A DNA stretch of 28,293 bases from a virus. Within the stretch, counting starts at the first letter, position 1; each line of letters opens with the position of its first letter. Both the position numbers and the translations under genes were made by a program. Location: the IMG/VR virus record IMGVR_UViG_3300034073_002899, positions 1-28,293 of that record. One strand, written 5' to 3'. Below, in pieces: positions 1 to 28,293 of this stretch. The notes under the pieces are model-generated. The model saw only the letters and a list, made by a program, of their open reading frames with translations, did no database searches and was not told where the DNA came from.

Positions 1-120
1 CCCACTCCCCCCCCCCCCCCCACCCCCGTCGACCGGCGCTACACGCGCGACACGCCCACCCCAACCCAACCCGACCCGACCCGGCCCGACGACGACGACC
101 CACTCGCCCTCTTCGACTAA
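1..120 (+). CDS. 3' end of a gene entering from the left edge (probably the C-terminus of the prim-pol/DUF3987 protein)
   Basis: The frame is open from base 1 to a TAA at 118-120. It encodes 39 residues rich in Pro and Thr, with a second VD dipeptide, a basic patch and an acidic end DDDDPLALFD that recalls the acidic tips of replication proteins such as SSB. No start codon lies inside the window. The gene open at the right edge is in the same frame (the window length is divisible by three) and also ends in Pro/Thr-rich sequence with a VD dipeptide, so I infer that this is its C-terminus read across a circular junction. The joined protein would be about 945 residues. The alternative, an unrelated gene tail, cannot be excluded. 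Confidence 0.7.
   Translation, partial: PTPPPPPTPVDRRYTRDTPTPTQPDPTRPDDDDPLALFD
7..21. repeat. 15-base poly-C run at the left edge
   Basis: Positions 7-21 are an unbroken C homopolymer, flanked by further C-rich sequence (1-33). With the pyrimidine-rich right end (28240-28280) it would form a strongly strand-biased tract. It is in frame as Pro codons. Such a run is prone to slippage and sequencing error, and is a natural place for an assembly to break. Confidence 0.9.
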
Positions 121-17567: not shown

Positions 17568-18944
17568 GTGAGGACCGTGATCTACGCCCGTCTGTCGCGT
17601 CGTTCCGACGTGAACGCCCTGAACCTCGACGACCAGATCGTCCGTTGCCGCGAGTACGCCACCCGCCAAGGGTGGACGGTGGTGGCGGAGCGATCCGACT
17701 ACGGCGAGTCGGCGTTCGAGCGTGACGCCATCGAGGACCGGCCCGGGTTCGGCGACGTGCTGACCTTGGTGCGGGACCGGCAGGTCGACGCCGTGCTCGC
17801 CTGGCGGCCGGATCGTCTGTTCCGTGACCCGATCGAGCAGGCCCTGTTCTTCCGGGAATGCCAGCGGCACGGGGTGGCGACGGTGGCGACGGTGGCGGAA
17901 GGTCAGCGGGACCCGGCGAACCCGGGGGATGAGATGGTTGGCACGATCGTCGCTGCCGTGGCCCGCTACGAATCGAACGCGAAGCGGGCCCGCCTGTTGG
18001 CGAAGCACCGCCAGTTGGCCGAGGCCGGGAAGGTGTCTGGTGGCGGCACCCGACCGTTCGGGTTCGAGGACGACCGGGTGACGATCCGCCCGGACGAGGC
18101 CGACGTGATCCGGTGGGCGGCGAAGGAGATCCTCGCCGGCACGTCGCTGCGCACCGTGTGCCGGATGCTCACCGATCGGGGTGTGGCGACGGTGACGGGG
18201 AAGCCGTGGACGTCGACCGTGTTGAAGGGCACCCTGACCCGGGCCCGGATCGCCGGCCTGCGGGAGCATCGCGGCACGGTGACCCGGGCGGTGTGGCCGG
18301 CGATCGTCACACCGGACGATCTGGCGCAGCTGCGTGCGACGCTGCTGGACCCGGCGAGGGCCACCCGGCACGGTCGGGGCCGCGTGTACCTGCTCACCGG
18401 TGGGGTCGCGGTGTGCGGCCATTGCGGGGCGCCGCTCGTGGCCCGCCCGAAGTCCGGCGGACGGCCCGCCTACCACTGCGCCCGGGGCGTGAACTTCACG
18501 GGCTGCGGCAAGATCTCACGGCTGGCGATCCCGGTGGAGGACGAGGTCGCTGCCCGCCTGTTCGCCGCGATCGACGACGGCACCCTCGCCGACGCCGAAC
18601 CGGAACCGGCACCCGAGTTGGACGGTGTCACCCTGGCCGACATCGAGGCCCGCCTCACGGACCTGTCCCGGGACCACTACGTCCTGCGGGTCATCTCCCG
18701 CGCCGAGTTCCTCGCGGCCCGGGACCCGCTGGCGGCCGAAGCGGACCGGCTCCGTGCCCGCCTGTCGACACCTCGGGGGCCGCGCCACCCGTTGCACGGG
18801 TTGCGGGAGGTGTGGCCGGTGTTGTCGATGGGGGAGCGGCGCCAGGTGGTCGCCGAGGTGATCGACCGGGTCGTGTTGTTGCCGGCGTTGAAGGGCCGGA
18901 ACCGGTTCGACCCGTCTCGGATCGAGGTGGTGTGGCGGGTCTAA
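17568..18944 (+). CDS. int: large serine integrase (458 aa)
   Basis: Catalyses attP x attB integration. N-terminal resolvase domain (1-150): VIYARLS with nucleophile S10, DDQIVRC, WRPDRLFRD and TVAEGQRDPANP. Then a recombinase domain with EIL-type helix and TGKPWTSTVLKGTLTRARIAGLREH (about 200-225), a zinc ribbon with CGHCG and paired later cysteines (HCARGVNFTGCG), and a C-terminal coiled-coil part. GTG 17568 is chosen because the protein then starts as RTVIYARLS; a TTG at 17550 would add six residues. Its stop overlaps the converging repressor gene by 3-4 bases. Length is normal. Confidence 0.95.
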   Translation: MRTVIYARLSRRSDVNALNLDDQIVRCREYATRQGWTVVAERSDYGESAFERDAIEDRPGFGDVLTLVRDRQVDAVLAWRPDRLFRDPIEQALFFRECQRHGVATVATVAEGQRDPANPGDEMVGTIVAAVARYESNAKRARLLAKHRQLAEAGKVSGGGTRPFGFEDDRVTIRPDEADVIRWAAKEILAGTSLRTVCRMLTDRGVATVTGKPWTSTVLKGTLTRARIAGLREHRGTVTRAVWPAIVTPDDLAQLRATLLDPARATRHGRGRVYLLTGGVAVCGHCGAPLVARPKSGGRPAYHCARGVNFTGCGKISRLAIPVEDEVAARLFAAIDDGTLADAEPEPAPELDGVTLADIEARLTDLSRDHYVLRVISRAEFLAARDPLAAEADRLRARLSTPRGPRHPLHGLREVWPVLSMGERRQVVAEVIDRVVLLPALKGRNRFDPSRIEVVWRV

Positions 18945-19633
18945 CCCTCCGGCGCCGCTGACTGCTGGTCGGCGAGGAACTTGGCGAGTTCGGCCTCGAC
19001 GTCGACCGAGTCGGGGTCGAACTCGAAGGTGCCCCGCGGCCCCCGCACGATGATCGTGGTGCCGTCGTCGCCTCTCCCGATCAGGACGGCGTCGTCGCCC
19101 TCGGTGGTGAGCGCCTCGGTGACCTTCTCCAGCGTGAGTTCCTGGGTCTCGGTGAGGTCGAGGAAACGCTTCCGGGCCGGCACGAGGTCACCGTAGGACG
19201 CCACGGTGGCGTGCGTGATCGACGTGACGGCGTCACGCAGCCGGGCGATCTCCTGCTGCATCTGCTGCTGGGTGCGCAGCACCTCCTGCGCCCACGGGGC
19301 GATCGCCTGCTGCATGTCGGCGGTCGCCTTCGTGATCTCGGCGATGGCGTGGCCGGTGAGCATCGGCCCCGGGTCGACCGGTTCGGGGGCATCGGCCGGG
19401 TCGACCGGGACGTAGCCGAGGTAGCGGGACAGGTCGCCGGCGTCGAGGGCGAGGATCTCTTCGAGTCGGGCCACCACGTCCCGGGGTGGCTCGGCTTCGC
19501 CGCGTTCGTACACCGACACGACCGTCTGGTCCTTGTCGATCAGGCGGCCGACCTCGGCCTGCGTCCGCCGGCTGCGCTTACGGGCGGCCCGAAGCGCCAG
19601 CCCGAAGCGGCGCCTCTGCTCGGTGCTCTCCAC
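18941..19633 (-). CDS. immunity repressor, XRE-type HTH, no cleavage domain visible (230 aa)
   Basis: The only minus-strand gene. Residues 6-62 form an XRE HTH (FGLALRAARKRSRRTQAEVGRLI then VVSVYERGEAEPP). The middle holds a Gln-rich coiled coil (about 105-140), probably for multimerisation, and the C-terminus a small beta-type domain (IVRGPRGTFEFDPDSVDV). No S24/LexA Ser-Lys dyad is visible, so RecA-stimulated self-cleavage is not expected. GTG start at 19633 with GAGG 7 bases upstream and an in-frame stop just before it. It runs divergently from the Cro-like gene and converges on the integrase; I infer the role of lysogeny repressor. Confidence 0.85.
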   Translation of the reverse strand: MESTEQRRRFGLALRAARKRSRRTQAEVGRLIDKDQTVVSVYERGEAEPPRDVVARLEEILALDAGDLSRYLGYVPVDPADAPEPVDPGPMLTGHAIAEITKATADMQQAIAPWAQEVLRTQQQMQQEIARLRDAVTSITHATVASYGDLVPARKRFLDLTETQELTLEKVTEALTTEGDDAVLIGRGDDGTTIIVRGPRGTFEFDPDSVDVEAELAKFLADQQSAAPEG

Positions 19634-19776: not shown

Positions 19777-19989
19777 ATGACGTTCGTACTCGCCGACCGG
19801 GTCAGAAGGTACCGGCAGGCCGCCGGCCTCACCCAGGCGCAGCTCGCCCGCCGCCTCGAAGTGGAACAGTCCACCGTCTCCGCCTGGGAGAATGGCAGGA
19901 AAACACCGACGATCGCCAACGTGGCCCGCATCGCAGCGGTGCTCGACGTGTCGATCGACGACCTCGTCGGCGGAGTCGCCGCAGCATGA
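19777..19989 (+). CDS. Cro-like XRE regulator (70 aa)
   Basis: An XRE HTH fills the protein: VRRYRQAAGLTQAQLARRLEVEQSTVSAWENGRKTP, then ANVARIAAVLDVSIDDLV. It is divergent from the repressor and first in the early operon, so a Cro-like function (repressing the repressor and favouring lytic growth) is inferred. ATG 19777 coincides with the predicted transcription start; an ATG at 19765 lies inside the -10 and is unlikely. Its stop overlaps the next ATG as ATGA. Confidence 0.88.
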   Translation: MTFVLADRVRRYRQAAGLTQAQLARRLEVEQSTVSAWENGRKTPTIANVARIAAVLDVSIDDLVGGVAAA

Positions 19990-22435: not shown

Positions 22436-22585
22436 ATGACAACCCACGACCTTCACGTCCTGCGCCGGGTGCTGCGCCACGTCGCCACGTCGGACCCTGC
22501 CCTGCAGGCCGAGGTGCTGCGCCTCGACGGCATCCTCGCCGCCCTGATCCGGTCACGGCAGACCACGGGGACGCCGGCGTCGTGA
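22436..22585 (+). CDS. small helical protein (49 aa)
   Basis: ATG 22436 follows a G-rich stretch (GGGGCGGGGG) that can serve as Shine-Dalgarno; the stop overlaps the WhiB GTG as GTGA. The product TTHDLHVLRRVLRHVATSDP with a second helix LQAEVLRLDGILAALIRSR looks like two short amphipathic helices. Family unknown. It is the first gene after the hairpin region. Confidence 0.65.
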   Translation: MTTHDLHVLRRVLRHVATSDPALQAEVLRLDGILAALIRSRQTTGTPAS

Positions 22586-23064
22586 CCGGTACCTGGCGTT
22601 CGAGGGCCGCCTGCATCGGCGTCCCCATCGACGTGTTCTTCCCGCCGGCCGGTGGCCGTCCCGCCACCATGTACGACGAGGCGCGCGCCATCTGCGCCGC
22701 CTGCCCCGTCGTCCACGAGTGCCTCGACTGGGTGCTCGGCTTCGCCGAACAGGAAGGGTTCGCCGGCGGCAAGACCGCCGCCGAACGGCGCCGCCTGCAA
22801 CTCGCCCGCGGCAACCGGGGCGACGTGTTCCGCTACCTGCGCGACGTCGACAGCCCCCACGGCACCCTCGCCGGCTACTACCTGCACACCCGTCACGGCG
22901 AGTCGCCGTGCCCGCTGTGCGTCGACGCCCGCTCCCGCTGGATGGAGTTCGACGTCGACCACCTGGCGGCCCGCCGGCGCCGTGACGCCGTTGCCCGCCA
23001 CCGGGAACGTGCCGCCAACACCGGCGACGACACGCCGGCGGTCGACGGGGGAGGTGCAGCGTGA
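22582..23064 (+). CDS. WhiB-like iron-sulfur regulator with C-terminal extension (160 aa)
   Basis: Actinobacterial Wbl family transcription factor binding a 4Fe-4S cluster. Cluster ligands C11, C38, C41 and C47 in the order C...CAAC-x5-C, then the turn GFAGGKTAAER (59-69) in place of the usual G[IV]WGG, and a basic region. The C-terminal extension (from about 90) carries HGTLAGYYLHTRHGESPCPLC, a small Cys-pair module also found in the 93-residue protein at 25298, then a basic helix. Phage WhiB proteins can bias host sigma-A transcription or exclude superinfection. GTG 22582 overlaps the previous stop. Confidence 0.92.
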   Translation: MTGTWRSRAACIGVPIDVFFPPAGGRPATMYDEARAICAACPVVHECLDWVLGFAEQEGFAGGKTAAERRRLQLARGNRGDVFRYLRDVDSPHGTLAGYYLHTRHGESPCPLCVDARSRWMEFDVDHLAARRRRDAVARHRERAANTGDDTPAVDGGGAA

Positions 23065-25301: not shown

Positions 25302-25579
25302 CCTTCGACCACGCCGCCGAACTCGCCCGCGCCCGCCGCCTGTCGGCCGGCCTGCGCCACCAGTTACGTCACGGCCTCGACCTGCTCGACGACAACCACC
25401 CGCTCTGTGAGTGGGACGGGCCGCTGCTGCCGCTCGAACCGGTGGACCTGCCCCCGATCCGGCACGGCACCAACAACGGCTACCAGACCCACCTGCGACG
25501 CGGCATCCCGCCCTGCCCGGCGTGCCGCACCGCCCACCGACACCAACGACGGCAGGAAAGGACCAGCAGCGCAGCATGA
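25298..25579 (+). CDS. small protein with HGT-x2-GY Cys-pair module (93 aa)
   Basis: GTG 25298 overlaps the previous stop and its TGA overlaps the replication gene ATG. The N-terminal half is helical (AAELARARRLSAGLRHQL). Residues 56-76 form HGTNNGYQTHLRRGIPPCPAC, followed by RTAHRHQRR, a small basic Cys-pair module frequent in actinophage proteins and similar to the extension of the WhiB protein. A DNA-binding role is plausible. Confidence 0.75.
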   Translation: MTFDHAAELARARRLSAGLRHQLRHGLDLLDDNHPLCEWDGPLLPLEPVDLPPIRHGTNNGYQTHLRRGIPPCPACRTAHRHQRRQERTSSAA

Positions 25580-28293
25580 CCGCCCAGGCAGCAACCCACG
25601 ACGGCGACAACACCAACCCCCACCAGCACGCCCTGATGCTCGCCGACGCCGGCTACCGGGTGCTCCCGATCCGCCCCGGCGAAAAACGGCCCCCCATGAC
25701 CGCCTGGCAAACCGCCGCCACCACCGACACCACCACCATCAACTCCTGGTGGACCGGCCTCTACCGGGACCACGGCATCGGCATCGCCACCGGCGCCCTC
25801 CCCGACGGCCGCCACCTGTTCGTCGTCGACATCGACGAACACGACCCCACTGCGAGCGGCACCGACACCTGGCACGAACTCCTCGCCCTCTACGGCACCG
25901 ACGAACCCGACACCGTCACCACCCTCACCCCGACCGGCGGACGACACCTCTACTTCACCGCGCCCCACCCCATCCCGAACGACGCCGGCCGCCGCCTCGG
26001 CCCCGGCCTCGACGTGCGCGGCACCGGCGGCCAAGTCCTCGCACCCCCCACGATCCACCCGAACGGCGGCCGATACGAATGGGAGATCGACCACGCCCCC
26101 TGGGTCGTCGAACCCGCCGCCGCACCCGGATGGCTCCTCCACCTCGTCACCCCCACCCAGACGACGCCGACACCGGTGCCGCCGGCGGGCTCGAGGACGG
26201 CGTCCGTGTGGGACGTCATCGCCGACGACGGACCCGCCGCCCGCTACAACGACACCACCACCTGGCACGACCTGCTCACCGGCGACGGCTGGACCCTCAC
26301 CCACATCGACCGCAGCGGCGAACAACACTGGACCCGCCCCGGCAAAGACGGCCGCGACGGCACCTCCGCCACCGTCGGCTGGAACGGCCGCGACATCCTC
26401 CGAGTGTTCACCACCTCGATCCCGTGGCTCCCCGAAGGCGCCTACTCCCGGTTCGGGTACTACGCCTGCCGGCACCACAACGGCAACCGATCCGACGCCG
26501 CCCGCACCCTCCGCAACGCCACCACCAGCACCAGCCCGGAACCTGTCGTCGTGCACCAGGCCGCCGACCCCGGCGAACCCTGGCCCGACCCGATCCCGCT
26601 CCACGACCACACCCGGGCCCCGGCGTTCCCCATGCACACCCTGCCGCGATGGATCGCCGACCACGCCACCGCCGTCGCCAACGACCTCCAAGTCGCCCCC
26701 GACCTGCCCGCCACCCTCGCCCTCGGCGCCCTCTCCGTCGCCACCCTCGGCCGCACCCACATCCGCTACCCCCGCCAGAACTGGCGGCAACCCTGCAACC
26801 TGTACGCCGCCGTCGCTCTCCCACCCTCCGCCGGCAAGTCACCCGCCAAGAACGCCATGTTCGGGCCCCTCGAAGAACTCGAAGTGACCCGGATGCAACA
26901 GGCCGCCGCCGCCCGCATCCGCGCCGAATCCCGGCGCAGCGTCCTCGACAAACGGAAACGGAACCTCGAAGACAAAGCGGCGAAAGGCGGCGACGACGGC
27001 CGGGCCGCCGAGTTCGAGCTGCTCGAACTCGTCGAAGAGATCGCCAACCTCGACCGGGTCCCCACCGGCAGGCTCCTCGCCGACGACGCCACCACCGAAG
27101 CCCTCGGCGTCGCCCTCGCCGACGCCGGCGGCCACATCGCCGTCGTCTCCGCCGAAGGCGGCATCTTCGACCGGATCGCCGGCCTCTACAGCGACGGGGC
27201 GTCCAACTTCGACCTGTACCTCGAAGCCTGGGGCGGCGGCCGATACGTCGTCGACCGCATCAAACGAGACCCGATCTCCATCCCGTCCGCCAACCTCGTC
27301 GTCATCACCACCGTCCAGCCCTCCGTGCTCGACGAGGTCGGCGCCAAACGACAGTTCGCCGGCCGTGGGCTCACCGCCCGCTTCCTGCTCTGCATGCCCG
27401 ACTCGAACGTCGGCACCCGGGACCGGCTGCGAGAATCATCCGGCGACGAGGTGCAGCGCCGCACCTACGCCGCACACCTCGTCGACCTCGCCGACCGGGT
27501 CCACACCGCCCCGATCGAACTGACCGTCACCGGCACCGCGTCCGACCGGTTCGCCCGCTGGGACCAGTCGCTCGAACACCGGCTCGCACCCGGCGACGAC
27601 CTCGAACACCTCGCCGAATGGGTCGGGAAACTCCGAGCCAACACCCTACGGGTCGCCGCCCTCCTCCACCTCGCCCACCAACACCCCGGCACCGACATCG
27701 ACGAGCACACCGTCGGCCAGGCGATCGAGATCGGCGACTATTACCTCGCCCACGCCCAAGCGATCGCCGACCGGTGGGGCACCGACGAACGGGTCGCCAA
27801 GGCCCGCAAACTCGCCGACTGGGTCACCCGCAACGGGCTCACCGAGTTCACCGCCCGCGACATCCTCCGCAACATGCGGCGCACGTTCGCCGACCTCGAC
27901 GCCCTCCGGCCCGCCGTCGAACTCCTCGTCGAACGAGGCTGGATCAGACCCCAGTTCGACGGTCCGTTCGTCGCCCACACCTCCCGAGGGAAACCGTCGC
28001 CCGGGTTCCTGGTGCACCCCGACGCCGGCCGACACCTCGAACCGAGCGTGTCGCGCGTGTCGCCGGCCGATCCGAGCGTGTCGCCGCCCGGGAGCGTGTC
28101 GCGCGTGTCGCCGCCCGGGAGCGTGTCGCGCGTGTCGCCGGCCGAATCGAGCGTGTCGCGCGTGTCGTCGCCCGAAACGCCTGTGGATAACCCGAGCGTG
28201 TCGCGCGTGTCGCGCGTGTCGCGTAGAGGGGGGATTGAACCCCCCACCCCCTCTACCTCTACCTCTACCCCTCCACCCCCGAACCCCGTCGAC
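25576..28293 (+). CDS. bifunctional primase-polymerase / DUF3987 replication protein, runs off the right edge (906 codons seen)
   Basis: Central replication enzyme. N-terminal prim-pol (AEP) domain at about 15-195: GYRVLPIRPGEKRPP, catalytic D85-x-D87 in VVDIDEHD, TPTGGRHLYF, and DVRGTGGQVLAPPTIHPNG. A middle segment follows (about 200-335). Then the DUF3987 ATPase-like domain (about 345-780) with Walker-A-like PPSAGKS (K421), ALADAGGHIAVVSAEGG, and ITTVQPSVL plus KRQFAGRGLTARF. The tail (824 onward) is low-complexity SVSRVSP repeats and Pro/Thr, with no stop before the edge. ATG 25576 overlaps the upstream TGA. The likely end is 1-120 across the junction. Confidence 0.93.
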   Translation, partial: MTAQAATHDGDNTNPHQHALMLADAGYRVLPIRPGEKRPPMTAWQTAATTDTTTINSWWTGLYRDHGIGIATGALPDGRHLFVVDIDEHDPTASGTDTWHELLALYGTDEPDTVTTLTPTGGRHLYFTAPHPIPNDAGRRLGPGLDVRGTGGQVLAPPTIHPNGGRYEWEIDHAPWVVEPAAAPGWLLHLVTPTQTTPTPVPPAGSRTASVWDVIADDGPAARYNDTTTWHDLLTGDGWTLTHIDRSGEQHWTRPGKDGRDGTSATVGWNGRDILRVFTTSIPWLPEGAYSRFGYYACRHHNGNRSDAARTLRNATTSTSPEPVVVHQAADPGEPWPDPIPLHDHTRAPAFPMHTLPRWIADHATAVANDLQVAPDLPATLALGALSVATLGRTHIRYPRQNWRQPCNLYAAVALPPSAGKSPAKNAMFGPLEELEVTRMQQAAAARIRAESRRSVLDKRKRNLEDKAAKGGDDGRAAEFELLELVEEIANLDRVPTGRLLADDATTEALGVALADAGGHIAVVSAEGGIFDRIAGLYSDGASNFDLYLEAWGGGRYVVDRIKRDPISIPSANLVVITTVQPSVLDEVGAKRQFAGRGLTARFLLCMPDSNVGTRDRLRESSGDEVQRRTYAAHLVDLADRVHTAPIELTVTGTASDRFARWDQSLEHRLAPGDDLEHLAEWVGKLRANTLRVAALLHLAHQHPGTDIDEHTVGQAIEIGDYYLAHAQAIADRWGTDERVAKARKLADWVTRNGLTEFTARDILRNMRRTFADLDALRPAVELLVERGWIRPQFDGPFVAHTSRGKPSPGFLVHPDAGRHLEPSVSRVSPADPSVSPPGSVSRVSPPGSVSRVSPAESSVSRVSSPETPVDNPSVSRVSRVSRRGGIEPPTPSTSTSTPPPPNPVD
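28046..28221 (+). repeat. GCGTGTCG iteron-like array (12 direct copies)
   Basis: The octamer GCGTGTCG occurs at 28046, 28055, 28076, 28094, 28103, 28121, 28130, 28151, 28160, 28196, 28205 and 28214, mostly in pairs 9 bases apart with a 27-30 base pitch. The spacer variants CCGGCCGA and CCGCCCGG alternate. It is in frame, coding SVSRVS units. An inverted copy (CGACACGC) lies at 48-55, just across the proposed junction. Confidence 0.92.
28182..28190 (-). promoter_or_regulatory. perfect DnaA box inside the iteron array
   Basis: The + strand reads TGTGGATAA, that is TTATCCACA on the minus strand, the consensus DnaA box. It occupies the one gap in the repeat array (between copies at 28160 and 28196) and is unusually AT-rich for this genome. 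It codes VDN in frame. Confidence 0.65.
28223..28256. other. strong hairpin next to the iteron array
   Basis: GTAGAGGGGG (28223-28232) pairs with CCCCCTCTAC (28247-28256); alternatively GGGGGG (28228-28233) pairs with CCCCCC (28240-28245) around ATTGAA. It is followed by a TCTACC-repeated pyrimidine tract. In coding frame. Confidence 0.75.

Follow-up and report, generated by a model that had tools for sequence, protein, structure and literature searches.

Iteron array at the 3′ end of the replication gene

The 3′ end of a Prim-Pol/DUF3987 replication gene at the right edge of the window (the whole 28,293-nucleotide stretch of viral DNA analyzed here) contains a repeat array that is very likely the replication origin of this phage, lying inside the gene for its own initiator-helicase-primase. 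The assignment is inferred from sequence, and no replication, binding, or origin-mapping data are available for any member. It is supported by features that were established directly: the layout of the array, its conservation at the DNA level, the turnover of the iterons, the link to DUF3987, the enrichment of DnaA boxes, and the covariation of the iterons with a winged-helix domain. In the literature searched, which was open access only, no paper describing a DUF3987 or primase-polymerase iteron origin was found. To judge from that literature, what is new is the location of a facing-iteron origin within the end of a Prim-Pol/MCM-like gene, together with the turnover of this origin and its link to the winged helix.

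The array consists of twelve GCGTGTCG octamers at positions 28046–28221 on the + strand, a number far above chance. These forward iterons are located at 28046–28053 and 28055–28062 (iterons 1 and 2), 28076–28083 (iteron 3), 28094–28101 and 28103–28110 (iterons 4 and 5), 28121–28128 and 28130–28137 (iterons 6 and 7), 28151–28158 and 28160–28167 (iterons 8 and 9), and 28196–28203, 28205–28212, and 28214–28221 (iterons 10–12). Their start-to-start distances are 9, 18, or 21 bp, except for a single gap of 36 bp. This largest gap holds a perfect DnaA box (TGTGGATAA/TTATCCACA, − strand, 28182–28190), the only one in the window. Elsewhere in the 28 kb, the octamer occurs three times, at scattered single sites on the − strand, of which the copy at 48–55 is part of the feature, as described below. 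When the whole window was scanned, the array was by far the top direct-repeat site, with 302 8-mer pairs compared with a median of 6 and with 31 for the next unrelated site. It is flanked by a hairpin (28223–28256) with perfect 10-bp arms at 28223–28232 and 28247–28256; as single-stranded DNA, this region has a folding z of −3.8, and its GGGGGG segment has a similar counterpart in several relatives. From about 28241 to the contig end at 28293, the + strand is a pyrimidine tract with CTCTAC repeats, which occupies the place of the low-GC tract of the relatives and in which the contig breaks.

Iteron origins are expected to contain regular direct repeats of one short unit and a DnaA box, and the window array has both, the latter as one perfect copy. 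The original prediction had named twelve octamers in 176 bp, a perfect DnaA box in the single gap, a flanking hairpin, and a long pyrimidine tract, all of which held. It had also called the spacing helical-like; the 9-bp step is slightly less than one helical turn. Cumulative GC skew, which it had proposed as a check, showed no clear switch in the window and gave no usable origin signal. Unlike the tracts of the relatives, that of the window is not AT-rich, its lowest 30-mer having 60% GC; either the contig break at this place or a genuine difference in this phage could account for this.

Within the array, all 12 of the 12 Val-Ser pairs are encoded by GTG-TCG, whereas in the gene body only 20% of Val codons are GTG and only 17% of Ser codons are TCG; none of 20,000 synonymous recodings yielded more than 3 octamers. 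This codon use is explained by a constraint at the DNA level. However, recent tandem duplication could also produce it and remains a possible alternative; the relatives therefore weigh more as evidence.

The replication gene and the contig junction

The array-bearing gene is represented by its first 906 codons (25576–28293, + strand) and runs off the contig end. Pfam identified Prim-Pol (PF09250, E 2e-38; residues 19–186, 25630–26133, + strand) and DUF3987 (PF13148, E 9e-88; residues 372–731, 26689–27768, + strand). The original prediction placed the array in the 3′ end of this gene. As a correction, the gene does not end at the right end of the window; it very likely spans the contig ends and continues in frame at positions 1–120 (+ strand), although the exact junction is unproven. 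There, frame 1 reads PTPPPPPTPVDRRYTRDTPTPTQPDPTRPDDDDPLALFD followed by a stop, ending in ...VDRRYTRDTPTPTQPDPTRPDDDDPLALFD, and is open until the TAA at 118–120. This conclusion is based on the open frame, on the presence of CCCCGTCGAC at both contig ends, on the 3′ end of the relative L320 (66% identity), which has the same CACCCCCGTCGAC followed by inverted iterons and a stop, and on the window ORF at 133–579, which resembles the gene following the primase in L321 (62% identity). The contig ends overlap by 10 bp; the frame is likewise preserved when they are simply concatenated, and a short gap between them can therefore not be excluded. Merging at GTCGAC gives a protein of 934 residues, and the ORFs of L320 and L321 have 927 codons when counted from the first start.

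Beyond this inferred junction lie a perfect inverted iteron (CGACACGC on the + strand; 48–55, − strand) and, 9 bp from it, a second one with a single mismatch (CTACACGC; 39–46, − strand), followed by the acidic-hydrophobic C-terminal tip DDDDPLALFD (88–117, + strand). Only through the junction does the window have opposed iteron sets around a central tract. The reading frame is open through the array, as an in-gene origin requires.

The contigs of L355 and L357 end in the array and those of L320 and L356 close by, as is the case for the window. Assembly seems to fail at this origin, and such phages may possibly be listed as incomplete. The window also contains a WhiB-family gene (22582–23064, PF02467), which hints at an actinobacterium as the likely host.

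Conservation of the DNA layout among relatives

Searching viral contigs with the window protein as a single sequence gave no matches, and alignments were needed; a search with an alignment of three sequences retrieved about 19 Prim-Pol + DUF3987 relatives, mostly full length. Each full-length relative tested (37–66% identity) has repeats at the 3′ end of the gene, nearly always within the ORF. In the usual arrangement, 9-bp-spaced iterons face inverted copies across a low-GC microsatellite tract. For most relatives, the 3′ end comprises, in order, forward iterons, sometimes a DnaA box, the low-GC tract, inverted iterons, and the C-terminal tip; many add a G-rich segment before the tract and a C-rich stretch after it. 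Inverted 8-mer pairs at the 3′ end exceeded all 200 dinucleotide shuffles in 18 of 18 relatives, and in most, although not all, they far exceeded those in internal windows of the same gene (L321 and L368 least). Among 16 relatives, most have a 30-mer in the 3′ region whose GC content is below that of every 30-mer in the gene body. As read from the sequences, this lowest-GC 30-mer is typically located between the two iteron sets, but not in L364 or L370.

The iteron itself varies widely. It is GCGTGTCGC in the window and L320, GCGTACCAT in L354, GCGCGCCAT in L356, L357, L362, L366, and L367, GTCGGTCAT in L355, ATGTCATGC in L358, ATGTCGCGC in L359 and L360, GTGGTGTCC in L361, GTTGCGCGG-like in L363, TTCGCGTCA in L364, GTTCTGCGC-like in L365, and GTTGAACGG in L370, where most copies follow the stop codon. 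In L369 and L371, long inverted repeats take the place of a clear 9-bp array. L320 has forward iterons as in the window, retains GCCTGTGGATAACCCGAGCGTGTCG, the DnaA box, unchanged, and continues with three inverted iterons read as TRDTRDT.

The encoded peptides differ between phages and are often unrelated (SVSRVS, ARHARHA, VAYHAYHAY, and NVAHVAH), and the inverted half encodes others again. Within one and the same ORF, iterons can also occupy different frames (4 + 4 in L359, 4 + 3 in L356, and 3 + 3 in L360). Indeed, one DNA iteron of L359 encodes both NVAHVAH and MSRMSR in two frames of one ORF. The C-terminal tips across the family are DDLGLF, DDDDGGLW, PFRPF, LALFD, and similar sequences.

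The spacing is exactly 9 bp in 54 of 65 in-ORF arrays and in 50 of 98 non-coding arrays. Because it occurs in both, it is likely set by protein geometry; as a multiple of three, it also suits coding use. The arrays, 4.9 kb in total, contain 9 DnaA boxes, whereas the 153 kb of flanking DNA contains only 4, a 70-fold enrichment (P 1.6e-11), although a perfect box is missing from half of the family arrays.

Collectively, the start site is maintained as a DNA layout while the iteron sequence and the encoded protein change. The claim of an iteron origin within coding sequence is thus supported by the relatives, its replication activity being inferred. The original prediction regarded the SVSRVS tail as a by-product of DNA-level selection, which holds as the best reading because the relatives keep the DNA layout while iterons and peptide change. 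It would have been refuted by relatives that keep the peptide repeats and not the DNA; the opposite was found. It missed the inverted iterons beyond the tract, the low-GC tract of the relatives, the iteron turnover, the winged helix as probable reader, and the more general class in which the same layout follows Streptomyces and Firmicutes DUF3987 genes.

DUF3987 genes of other elements

The strongest mixed repeat of a DUF3987 locus was found ≤350 nt from the stop codon in 41 of the 72 loci surveyed in Streptomyces, Firmicutes, and others, with about 7% expected by position. These loci are mutually related, and the 41 are not independent events. In Streptomyces and Firmicutes elements, the facing-repeat layout is common just 3′ of the stop codon of DUF3987 genes; in the loci inspected, the facing units are TGACAGAAC, CCGCAGAAA, or GGACAAA. 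In a Tsukamurella plasmid, GGGACAGAAG repeats run across the stop codon.

DUF3987-type genes from actinobacterial genomes (L436, L437, and L438) have facing repeats inside the ORF end (TTCACAAAATTCACAAAA/TTTTGTGAGTTTTGTGAA; CCGCAGAAA-type). Phage genes combining Prim-Pol with AAA_25, a different helicase type (L372–L431), often, but not always, have in-ORF arrays near the stop codon (GGGAACCAC, ACCGCGCC, and GGGACGCG units), with mixed spacing (9–12 bp and longer) and mixed frames.

Predicted structure and candidate iteron reader

The AlphaFold2 model of the window protein has a pLDDT of 88. Its predicted DUF3987 core has an MCM-like AAA+ helicase fold, with a VIA-align Z of 18.5 to the archaeal MCM 6mii; a profile search of PDB sequences found no meaningful relative. 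A C-terminal winged-helix domain (residues 738–822, 27787–28041, + strand) is predicted by the model, based on our reading of its secondary-structure order, H-E-H-H-E-wing-E.

Iteron similarity between family members correlates with winged-helix identity (r 0.53), and the partial correlation given the rest of the protein is 0.45 (p 3e-4), while that for the rest of the protein given the winged helix is −0.03. In this comparison, the iteron units had been picked by eye. An automatic 5-mer iteron profile gave a partial correlation of 0.41 (p 0.0013), which fell to 0.26 (p 0.06) when two near relatives were dropped. When helix 2-3 is taken by itself, the covariation is weaker than for the whole winged helix (partial 0.27, p 0.03), and other stretches of the protein, around residues 340–377, also correlate somewhat with the iterons. 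The winged helix is therefore proposed as the probable iteron reader, an inference from sequence covariation without binding data.

Proposed mechanism and implications

In the proposed mechanism, the C-terminal winged helix of the Prim-Pol/DUF3987 protein would bind the 9-bp-spaced iterons, and the opposed iteron sets would position helicase hexamers face to face on either side of the central tract, with host DnaA assisting where a DnaA box exists. The tract would then be opened by the MCM-like DUF3987 motor, which would load, and priming would be performed by the Prim-Pol domain. Finally, the acidic, usually aromatic-ended C-terminal tip may serve to recruit a partner from the replisome; this would account for the reading frame being maintained through the origin. 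Acidic-aromatic tails that dock replication proteins are known from SSB and T7 gp4, and the tips resemble them; for this protein, such a role is conjecture. Binding, opening, hexamer number, and the role of the tip are all inferred.

A bolder reading, at present slightly more doubtful than probable, is that these arrays belong to a class of dual-coded origins widespread among actinophages. Prim-Pol would be combined with MCM-like DUF3987 or AAA_25, the facing-iteron origin would be kept in the ORF since an essential C-terminal tip lies beyond it, specificity would drift by co-evolution of the winged helix and the 9-bp iteron, and a pair of MCM-like hexamers would be loaded in head-to-head orientation by the facing sets. 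If true, the latter would be a bacterial parallel to MCM double-hexamer loading in archaea and eukaryotes.

For DUF3987 proteins, which are listed by Pfam as of unknown function, the array provides a concrete cis-element together with a candidate domain for reading DNA, and it is relevant to many uncultured phages and mobile elements with unknown origins. Here, a DNA signal and a protein end share the same bases, with the DNA layout conserved and the peptide changing. The many iteron/winged-helix pairs constitute a natural data set for a specificity code, and the putative origins are small candidate replicons for actinobacterial vectors.

Comparison with known origins

The C-terminal domain of the SaPI Rep protein recognizes an iteron origin located immediately downstream of the Rep gene, and Cch2 of SCCmec likewise binds downstream direct repeats (PMC7581432). 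The phage array shares with these systems the iteron origin directly 3′ of, or at the 3′ side of, the helicase gene, the C-terminal reader domain, here a proposed one, and a primase in the module (PMC7581432). The SaPI origin is reported to consist of two opposed iteron sets around an AT-rich region (Ubeda et al. 2007/2012). Both the family and the wider DUF3987 survey show iterons on the 3′ side of helicase genes, and opposed sets flank a central tract in L320 and the relatives. In contrast to SaPI and SCCmec, the phage origin lies inside the ORF, primase and helicase form one protein, the helicase is of the DUF3987 type, the iteron sequences are different, and the host is probably an actinobacterium. 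SaPI Rep homologs are of the DUF927 or D5/Primase_Cterm type; by Pfam alone, the window protein has only DUF3987 and Prim-Pol, and its predicted fold is MCM-like.

In lambda and lambdoid phages, iterons and an AT-rich tract lie inside gene O, and extra iterons add residues to the protein (PMC7466680). The comparison with lambda O made in the original prediction fits for the in-gene placement of the origin. Lambda O is neither a helicase nor a primase and its ori is mid-gene, whereas the iteron sets here are opposed, lie at the 3′ end, and show strong turnover. A lambda-type origin would require an O-protein homolog, and only Prim-Pol + DUF3987 is present.

The pRN1 protein ORF904 combines Prim-Pol, helicase, and winged helix and has a cis element required for replication just 3′ of its gene; a similar arrangement is seen in some bacteriophages (PMC4234260). 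However, that element is a 100-nt non-coding stem-loop rather than iterons, and the helicase belongs to SF3. Actinomycete ICEs encode Prim-Pol proteins beside the putative replication protein RepPP (PMC3218068), and a term search of that paper found no mention of iterons. In Streptomyces DUF3987 loci, the arrays are mostly after the stop codon.

Alternative explanations

The array might be a packaging (pac/cos) site made of terminase small-subunit repeats. In the joined genome, it is followed by a small ORF, an HNH gene (931–1212), and terminase (1530–2978), and an HNH-like gene follows the array in several relatives. However, the layout also occurs 3′ of DUF3987 genes in a Streptomyces plasmid and in chromosomal elements; in the plasmid (L127), HTH and integrase genes follow and no terminase does. 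The iterons track the winged helix of the replication protein, and DnaA boxes and low-GC tracts are not packaging signals, which makes this explanation very unlikely.

It is also very improbable that the repeats are repressor or stoperator operators for early genes. Short phage repeats can be operators, the window has a regulator-like HTH gene (18941–19633) and, judged from sequence only, a second candidate near 19780–19989, and GCGTGTCG is found ahead of a TTGACA box in unrelated phages. Yet the array lies inside a gene end, facing arms in the relatives flank a low-GC tract and carry DnaA boxes, and the iterons covary with the replication protein.

A partition centromere or incompatibility iterons, as opposed to the origin itself, are likewise very unlikely. 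Plasmid iteron arrays are known to serve both purposes. However, no partition gene was recognized among the window ORFs that were looked at, a serine recombinase in the window suggests an integrating phage, and the tract, the DnaA boxes, and the helicase-linked specificity fit an origin. An additional role in copy control is possible and compatible with the origin reading.

Selection for the peptide of a repetitive disordered tail can be all but dismissed: the frame is open through the array in nearly all relatives and a KGGIE-like peptide and the acidic C-terminal tip recur, but the peptides are wholly different between relatives, the inverted half encodes others, codon choice in the array is constrained, and many relatives have comparable arrays in non-coding DNA.

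Occurrence of the octamer in other phages

Matches from an octamer-pattern search were dropped as support for the origin, as they were mostly from unrelated phages with a GCGTGTCG + TGTGGATAAC element, ten of the records having no Prim-Pol match. Those ten come from the two groups described here taken together. The first (L011, L012, L018, L023, L032–L035, L044, L045, L077, L090, L097, L100, L101, L113, L115, and L125) has a mostly non-coding element common to phages unrelated by gene content. It consists of GGCGTGTCGGCTTGACA and, ~100 nt further on, (usually TGTGGATAAC +) GGGCGTGTCGTGGCGTGTCGGGCGTGTCG, with the octamer often beside a DnaA box. The second group (L130–L239) comprises many small phage contigs, several of 15–16 kb, in which a single GCGTGTCG is surrounded by several DnaA boxes, e.g., GTGTCAAGCATGTGGATAAC...GCGTGTCG...CTTATCCACAG. 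Their DnaA-box region is often located inside an open frame of 150–220 codons.
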